Positions 43,386-43,657 of a DNA stretch of 64,000 nt are shown piece by piece. The position numbers and the translations under genes were made by a program. Below the pieces are notes generated by a model. That model was not told the DNA's origin. It saw only the letters and a program-made list of their open reading frames with translations, and did not search any database. How positions within the stretch are numbered: the stretch's first letter is position 1; each line of letters begins with the position of its first letter. The DNA lies in assembly GCA_017443845.1 (NCBI GenBank), contig JAFSXX010000045.1, positions 1 through 64,000 on the forward strand, written 5' to 3'. This DNA is from Bacteroidales bacterium (GTDB taxonomy: Bacteria; Bacteroidota; Bacteroidia; Bacteroidales; UBA932).

Positions 43386-43446
43386 ACGAGGGGTTCGGGG
43401 GCCGTGCCCCCGTCAAAAACGAGTGCCCTTAGGGGCACCTCAAAAC
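43385..43446. repeat. Duplicated hairpin module, copy A
   Basis: A roughly 62-base unit beginning ACGAGGGGTTCGGGGGCCGT. It holds two hairpins: CGGGGGC-CGT-GCCCCCG (43396-43412) and GTGCCC-TTAG-GGGCAC (43423-43438), and ends CACCTCAAAA. It begins on the last base of the nitroreductase stop. A near-identical copy is at 43491-43549. Confidence 0.9.
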
Positions 43447-43452
43447 AAATAC

Positions 43453-43475
43453 AGCCGCATTTCTGCGGCTTTTTT
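43453..43475 (+). terminator. Rho-independent terminator after nitroreductase
   Basis: AGCCGCA-TTTC-TGCGGCT followed by TTTTT: a 7-bp GC-rich stem and T-run on the plus strand, 67 bases after the nitroreductase stop. Confidence 0.9.
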
Positions 43476-43490
43476 AAACGTAGCGAAGCT

Positions 43491-43549
43491 ACGAGGGGTT
43501 CGGGGGCCGTGCCCCCGTCAGAAGTGAGTGCCTAAGGGCACCTCAAAAA
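43491..43549. repeat. Duplicated hairpin module, copy B
   Basis: Second copy of the module at 43385-43446, differing at only a few bases and one deletion. The same two hairpins are present. Its last bases (GGGCACCTCAAAA) also form the outer left arm of the long terminator palindrome that reaches tRNA-Cys. A small CGTAGC-GAA-GCTACG hairpin (43479-43493) precedes it. Confidence 0.9.
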
Positions 43550-43594
43550 TAAAAGCGGAGCCGATTTGGCTTCGCTTTTATTTTTGAGGTGCCC
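43536..43594 (-). terminator. Long palindromic terminator of tRNA-Cys, overlapping the tRNA
   Basis: Arms 43536-43562 and 43568-43594 are inverse complements over 27 bases with one mismatch, loop GATTT. On the minus strand the T-rich arm follows tRNA-Cys, which suits a terminator. The right arm includes the acceptor strand of the tRNA itself (43588-43594), so the downstream arm carries a copy of the tRNA 5' acceptor sequence. Confidence 0.85.
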
Positions 43595-43657
43595 AGCGGA
43601 ATTGAACCGCTCTACCTGGTTTTGCAGACCAGTGCCTAACCTCCCGGCCCGGGCACC
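43587..43657 (-). tRNA. tRNA-Cys (anticodon GCA)
   Basis: On the minus strand the 71-base gene starts GGTGCCC and ends GGGCACC plus a U discriminator, giving a perfect 7-bp acceptor. The D arm is GCC...GGC, the anticodon arm CTGGT-CTGCAAA-ACCAG with anticodon GCA, and the T arm AGCGG-TTCAATT-CCGCT. CCA is not encoded. U at the discriminator is the usual cysteine identity element. Confidence 0.95.

Follow-up and report, generated by a model that had tools for sequence, protein, structure and literature searches.

The tRNA-Cys gene and its tail

In the window (the whole 64,000-nt stretch of DNA that was analyzed), the minus-strand gene for tRNA-Cys is followed by a terminator palindrome that reaches 9 nt inside the gene. 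The arms, at 43536-43562 and 43568-43594, are 27 nt each, 96% complementary and separated by a 5-nt gap; an inverted-repeat search confirmed the original prediction that such a palindrome exists and includes the 3' acceptor strand of the tRNA. The inner part of the palindrome consists of an A-tract, a hairpin and a T-tract (T1), and its outer 9 bp are formed by the end of the tRNA (B) and an inverted copy of that end (B'). On the minus strand, the order of elements is tRNA-Cys, T1, B', a short loop, C, H3 and H4, with a second unit 105 nt on (Table 1). This unit contains its own hairpin, B', C and H3, and ends at the stop codon (43385) of a convergent gene that is putatively nitroreductase-like, judging from inspection of the open reading frame.

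Table 1. Features of the tRNA-Cys gene and its downstream tail
Feature	Position	Strand	Support
tRNA-Cys (anticodon GCA), without encoded CCA	43586..43657	-	ARAGORN; RF00005, 47.8 bits
B: 3' acceptor strand, discriminator U73 and C74 (GGGCACCTC)	43586..43594	-	
T1: A-tract, hairpin core and T-tract; terminator-shaped in both directions	43545..43585	-	
B': inverted copy of the tRNA 3' end (GAGGTGCCC), partner of B	43536..43544	-	
C: GGCACTC, pairs locally with B' (hairpin H2, loop TTA)	43526..43532	-	
H3: GACGGGGGCACGGCCCCCGAACCCCT, GC hairpin tail, common to tails of other tRNAs	43494..43519	-	
H4: CGTAGCTTCGCTACG hairpin	43479..43493	-	
Second tandem unit (105-nt spacing): T2, B', C and H3; repeat 93%	43386..43490	-	
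T2: stem-loop, terminator-like on both strands	43453..43470	.	terminator scan
B', second copy (GAGGTGCCC)	43433..43441	-	
H3, second copy	43389..43413	-	

By sequence, both T1 and T2 have the arrangement of intrinsic terminators, a GC-rich hairpin directly followed by a T-run, and the fold predicted for T1 is a long hairpin ending in a U-tract. It should be noted that T1 was not listed by a simple terminator scan, probably due to one mismatch and the long A/T stem. The search of the window against Rfam at the gathering threshold returned tRNA only, and no curated family was matched by the tail. The direct repeat of the tRNA 3' end that characterizes att sites was not found at tRNA-Cys, where the copies are inverted. 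The 13-mer GGGCACCTCAAAA has exactly three occurrences in the genome (2.06 Mb), none of them outside this locus: at the end of tRNA-Cys, in the first copy, and in the second copy (43433-43445) inside the tandem 105-nt unit. A dispersed repeat matching tRNA-Cys by accident was rejected because the 13-mer is found only here and each tail fits its own tRNA.

Inverted tRNA ends across the genome and the lineage

A census of the 38 tRNA loci of this genome, based on an ungapped score, revealed copies with a depth of at least 4 nt at 14 loci and at least 6 nt at 11 loci; these counts are low since the score overlooks tails with one-base bulges. The depth is 17 nt for Lys-ctt, 16 for Pro-cgg, 10 for Thr, 9 for Cys and Met, and 8 for Phe and Leu, among others, and the tmRNA gene likewise has an inverted copy of its own 3' end. 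A special role of tRNA-Cys was rejected, as many other tRNAs have copies of their own.

Palindromes and terminators were scanned in the window and 20 stretches of the same genome, 461 kb in total. All of the eight best palindromes (score of at least 19) are located at tRNA 3' ends, and seven of the eight enter the tRNA. An extension of at least 6 nt past the T-tract was found in 4/8 terminator-like sites at stable RNAs vs. 0/102 sites away from tRNA (106 non-tRNA sites minus four tRNA palindromes read from the opposite strand), suggesting that the extension belongs to tRNA genes, within the limit that the small number of intrinsic terminators sets on this comparison. The 4/8 vs. 0/102 comparison supersedes an estimate of tRNA specificity from the count of strict terminators, which reached only p = 0.03 owing to the rarity of intrinsic terminators (18 strict ones in 461 kb, counting both strands). 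Given this scarcity, tRNA genes may hold a large share of the intrinsic terminators of the genome.

Some matching is expected by chance: an intrinsic terminator flanked by A/T tracts is inherently a palindrome, and short matches should occur because the ends of many tRNA genes are similar (CAC, for example). However, when tRNA bodies were swapped among loci, matches of at least 9 nt dropped from 23.7% (own tRNA) to 0.46% (swapped), and depths of at least 6 nt dropped from 32.9% to 1.9%. Together with the location of the best palindromes, the absence of extensions at the 102 non-tRNA sites, and the genus-wide matches described below, these controls make chance, or an ordinary terminator that overlaps the tRNA incidentally, hardly credible.

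The spread of the architecture was scored with a covariance model of the T-arm plus the palindrome. In the genus of the window, 38/40 genomes match the model, 1-14 times each. Elsewhere in the family the distribution is patchy: two other genera have 4-11 matches per genome, others have 1-4, and many have none. Matches were detected in 14/246 other genomes of the order, nearly all once, and in 14/391 other genomes of the phylum, where the stricter filters used for these large sets lose some matches; outside the family, there are 0-2 cases per genome. The original prediction held that the overlap would be incidental if relatives had ordinary terminators that do not copy the acceptor sequence. 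By and large, the relatives do not refute a more-than-incidental overlap: a copy is present at 17 of the 29 tRNA-Cys loci of the genus, and at many other tRNAs. The copy behind tRNA-Cys is one instance of an architecture that occurs lineage-wide in a Bacteroidales family of uncultured gut and rumen bacteria. The named records with H3 tails are metagenome-assembled genomes of uncultured Bacteroidales/Bacteroidia, one from goat reticulum and the others with RUG bin names. In open-licence full texts, we found no description of this architecture.

The nuclease SbcCD cuts palindromes, and its SbcD subunit (TIGR00619) scores over the cut-off in 5/40 genomes of the genus vs. 52/148 in the order. Loss of SbcCD was nevertheless rejected as the cause, being neither needed nor sufficient: the SbcD-keeping genomes G008, G013, G030 and G034 have 5-7 cases each, and many SbcD-less genomes have none.

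Beyond the copies, tRNAs of one lineage have tails in common, and these tails vary from lineage to lineage. Within the genus, H3 recurs behind tRNA genes for Cys, Leu, Lys, Ala, Phe and Val, and none of its sites is clearly unrelated to tRNA; of its 20 matches, three (L061, L063, L068) are close to contig ends and have no tRNA within reach. At nearly all H3-bearing tRNA loci the terminator palindrome enters the 3' end of its own tRNA, the exception being a tRNA-Leu (L057). The B':C hairpin is present in 64/101 tails, and at L012, L025 and L204 joint changes have led B' and C away from the tRNA sequence. In one sublineage (L188, L192, L195, L228, L238), the tRNAs for Cys, Phe and Met are followed by a different tail, CCAGTCGCTTCGCTCCTTATCTACCCCTCC or a close variant of it, and a similar-looking tail, AGTCACTTCGTGACAGCCCC, is seen in genus g346. 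Behind tRNA-Cys of genome G019 (L116, G019:C4:177600-178700) there are three tandem units of ~99 nt, each with terminator, copy and hairpins, vs. one unit in the near relative G037.

What the copies mirror and where they end

Where the acceptor stem is wobble-paired or mismatched (~60 positions), B' carries the base complementary to the 3' strand, except for a few positions that fit neither strand or have decayed. Therefore, B' is the Watson-Crick complement of the 3' strand of the tRNA, and a copy of the 5' strand was rejected. The original prediction had described a downstream copy of the 5' acceptor sequence; this is correct in letter at tRNA-Cys, where the two are identical only because the stem is fully Watson-Crick paired; in relatives with wobble or mismatched acceptor pairs, the copy follows the 3' strand. 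It had also raised a possible interaction with the lack of encoded CCA. Among tRNA-Cys genes with copies, TGGAG is found in 8/8 with encoded CCA and 0/9 without it; thus, the copy is present in either case and simply mirrors the gene (8/8 and 9/9). A special role of the missing CCA was accordingly rejected.

In quasi-palindrome template-switch mutagenesis, the distal arm is rewritten from the proximal arm to perfect complementarity. The distal arms studied here mirror the proximal arms as such rewriting would predict, including non-conserved bases: linker bases are mirrored through double changes in 16/17 palindrome pairs (in an alignment chosen for pairing), and the palindrome cores vary between species while the arms remain matched. 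At three tRNA-Ser loci a hairpin tail lies inside the right arm, and the complement picks up exactly where it was interrupted.

Copies usually end at the border between acceptor and T-stem or before reaching it. Of 90 copies, 22 stop exactly after 9 nt (C74, 73 and 72-66), i.e., at this border, and 9 are deeper; matching is 0.59 at nt 66 and drops to 0.23 at nt 65. When Cys is excluded, half of the copies that reach nt 66 (9/18) stop there. A small deep class ends in the T-loop, with lengths of 16-18 nt, and 23 nt in the second unit of Val-gac. Conserved RNA pairing is expected to tolerate G.U pairs; B' substitutions that make G.U (28/331) are not more frequent than those that make A.C (27/376; p = 0.57, without correction for phylogeny), so that G.U-tolerant covariation of B and B' was not found in this set. 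This is as expected of templated copying followed by neutral decay.

Candidate origins and roles of the copies

As the main cause, we tentatively favor, with not quite even confidence, fold-back (templated) copying that recurrently rewrites the distal arm of the terminator. The following account of how the copies arise and why they end at nt 66 is our inference. The terminators of tRNA and tmRNA genes would be long palindromes, the distal arms of which are repeatedly rewritten from the proximal arms. The 3' end of a strand in the T-tract would pair with the A-tract of the same strand and be extended on the tRNA 3' end as the template, by quasi-palindrome template switching, for which DNA replication would be the simplest setting. 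As the tRNA half is not free to change, the copy would always track the tRNA. Copies past the acceptor stem would mostly be lost, plausibly because a read-through RNA would trap the T-arm. A further fold-back on the copy would yield the B':C hairpin, and tandem duplication would yield the second units. What favors fold-back is that the complement is that of one strand, that non-conserved bases are mirrored, that decay looks neutral, and that the same fold-back can be reused for C; it is also supported by the match of each copy to its own tRNA, by arms that stay matched despite differing cores, and by the tRNA-Ser complement resuming after the inserted tail. However, a purely DNA-level process should not see the border between acceptor and T-stem, and a generic one should act at mRNA terminators, too. 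Action at strong palindromes regardless of gene type was not observed in the 461 kb, nor was any intermediate or new event seen in the genomes compared, and fold-back alone does not explain tails common to several tRNAs. RNA structure, or selection against copies that would trap the T-arm in read-through RNA, is suggested by the border and by the confinement of the copies to tRNA genes. The process may still be of the template-switch kind if tRNA genes favor such copying.

The copies could instead be footprints of mobile elements: H3/H4 hairpin elements, or integrases acting at tRNA 3' ends, would leave inverted copies of the tRNA end upon insertion or exit. Consistent with this, H3 is shared by tails of six tRNAs and has no clearly non-tRNA site, sister lineages have another tail common to their tRNAs, and a tail splits the right arm of the tRNA-Ser palindromes. 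In addition, at G000:C46:3790 a deep palindrome follows a 3' fragment of tRNA-Val, and the fragment resembles a displaced att half. Conversely, each tRNA has a B' that fits it specifically, B' is also present where H3 tails are lacking (e.g., at Lys-ctt and Arg-ccg), and B' is inverted, whereas integration into tRNA genes yields direct repeats; the three H3 matches near contig ends could not be placed. We consider this origin quite unlikely. A further candidate is RNA-templated copying, in which a reverse transcriptase or an RNA polymerase would extend the 3' end of a terminated precursor, paired to the A-tract, along the 3' acceptor strand as far as the T-arm, which would block it, the product returning to the genome. 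Such copying would explain the choice of template, the end at nt 66 and the second class of ends in the T-loop; against it, a route back into DNA is needed, and no enzyme or intermediate was identified. We consider it decidedly improbable. In a more novel reading, a copying process specific to tRNA genes, either templated by RNA or linked to tRNA structure, would place the complement of each tRNA's acceptor 3' strand behind its terminator. Across the lineage, this would result in precursors of four segments (A, B, B', C) that can exchange the partners of the acceptor stem; such a process seems unlikely as well, if less so than RNA-templated copying alone.

The copies could also act in RNA, as a fail-safe or switch: read-through would add B', which would displace the 5' acceptor strand and form a duplex of 24-30 bp, and the precursor would be inactivated or sent to RNase III, with C, as a third copy, able to re-open the choice and selection holding B' at exact acceptor length. 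In models of the precursor, RNA that ends at the T-tract retains the acceptor stem, RNA that contains B' prefers B:B', and in RNA that includes C, A pairs with C and B with B'. Forced B:B' beats the forced native acceptor stem in 84/90 tails, by a median of 6.7 kcal/mol, in energies that cover secondary structure and ignore tertiary contacts and modified bases. In this folding check, the original claim of two possible partners for the 3' acceptor strand is borne out in silico. The ends of the copies at the end of the acceptor stem, the B':C hairpins that form even where B' has diverged from the tRNA, and the maintenance of the copies across the genus and in tmRNA are also consistent with a switch. 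However, B' lies past the T-tract and is therefore absent from properly terminated RNA, with no part in ordinary transcripts; it has no G.U preference, and copies of 16-18 nt reach the T-loop. Nor does C restore the native stem: adding the next 21 nt (C) to the model makes no average difference (median shift 0), and a general role of C in rescuing the acceptor stem is not supported on average. As the main rival of fold-back rewriting, a switch appears possible, if doubtful. The original interpretation is partly supported: the two predicted partners stand, but the copies are not specific to tRNA-Cys, lie beyond the T-tract, have no G.U bias and show no link to a missing CCA.

Several known systems share parts of this architecture. 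Intrinsic (Rho-independent) bidirectional terminators also have a GC hairpin between A- and T-tracts directly after the gene; unlike them, the palindromes here extend beyond the tracts by 6-18 nt, reaching into the mature RNA and copying it. Quasi-palindrome mutagenesis differs in that the copies are repeated at many tRNA loci, are tRNA-specific and have a border at the acceptor stem. The repeats of the E. coli tyrT operon (rtT RNA) are units behind a tRNA that carry a direct piece of the tRNA 3' end; the piece here is inverted and placed around a terminator. In E. coli rrn operons, a stable-RNA operon is likewise followed by more than one terminator, dual terminators with an sRNA, a structured RNA, between them, and the abstract describes no inverted copy of the mature RNA end (PMC8144298). 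Methanopyrus kandleri has a palindromic motif ~10 bp downstream of tRNAs with a proposed role in 3' maturation (PMC5217627); that motif is a fixed consensus outside the tRNA, vs. a copy of each tRNA here. Occurring in several genera of one Bacteroidales family and being largely absent elsewhere, the copies offer many parallel natural replicates of one process, and would document either the rewriting of terminator palindromes with a fixed template (tRNA) or a read-through check on precursors. Inverted tRNA fragments in 3' flanks could also confuse the annotation of att sites and terminators.

Other arrangements were noted. A tRNA-Gly gcc gene (L083 1576-1750, G000:C1) has a direct 21-nt copy of its 3' end 131 nt downstream, and a partial inverted copy of the T-arm lies between the gene and this direct copy. 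At L115 101-230 (G000:C46:3790-3920), the 3' fragment of tRNA-Val(gac) is followed by a palindrome copying about 24-26 nt of the tRNA end; the fragment looks like a displaced tRNA half after integration of an element. Soon after tRNA-His in L094, the sequence GCGAATCCCGGACAGTTCCCGC resembles, by eye, a putative cobalamin riboswitch.
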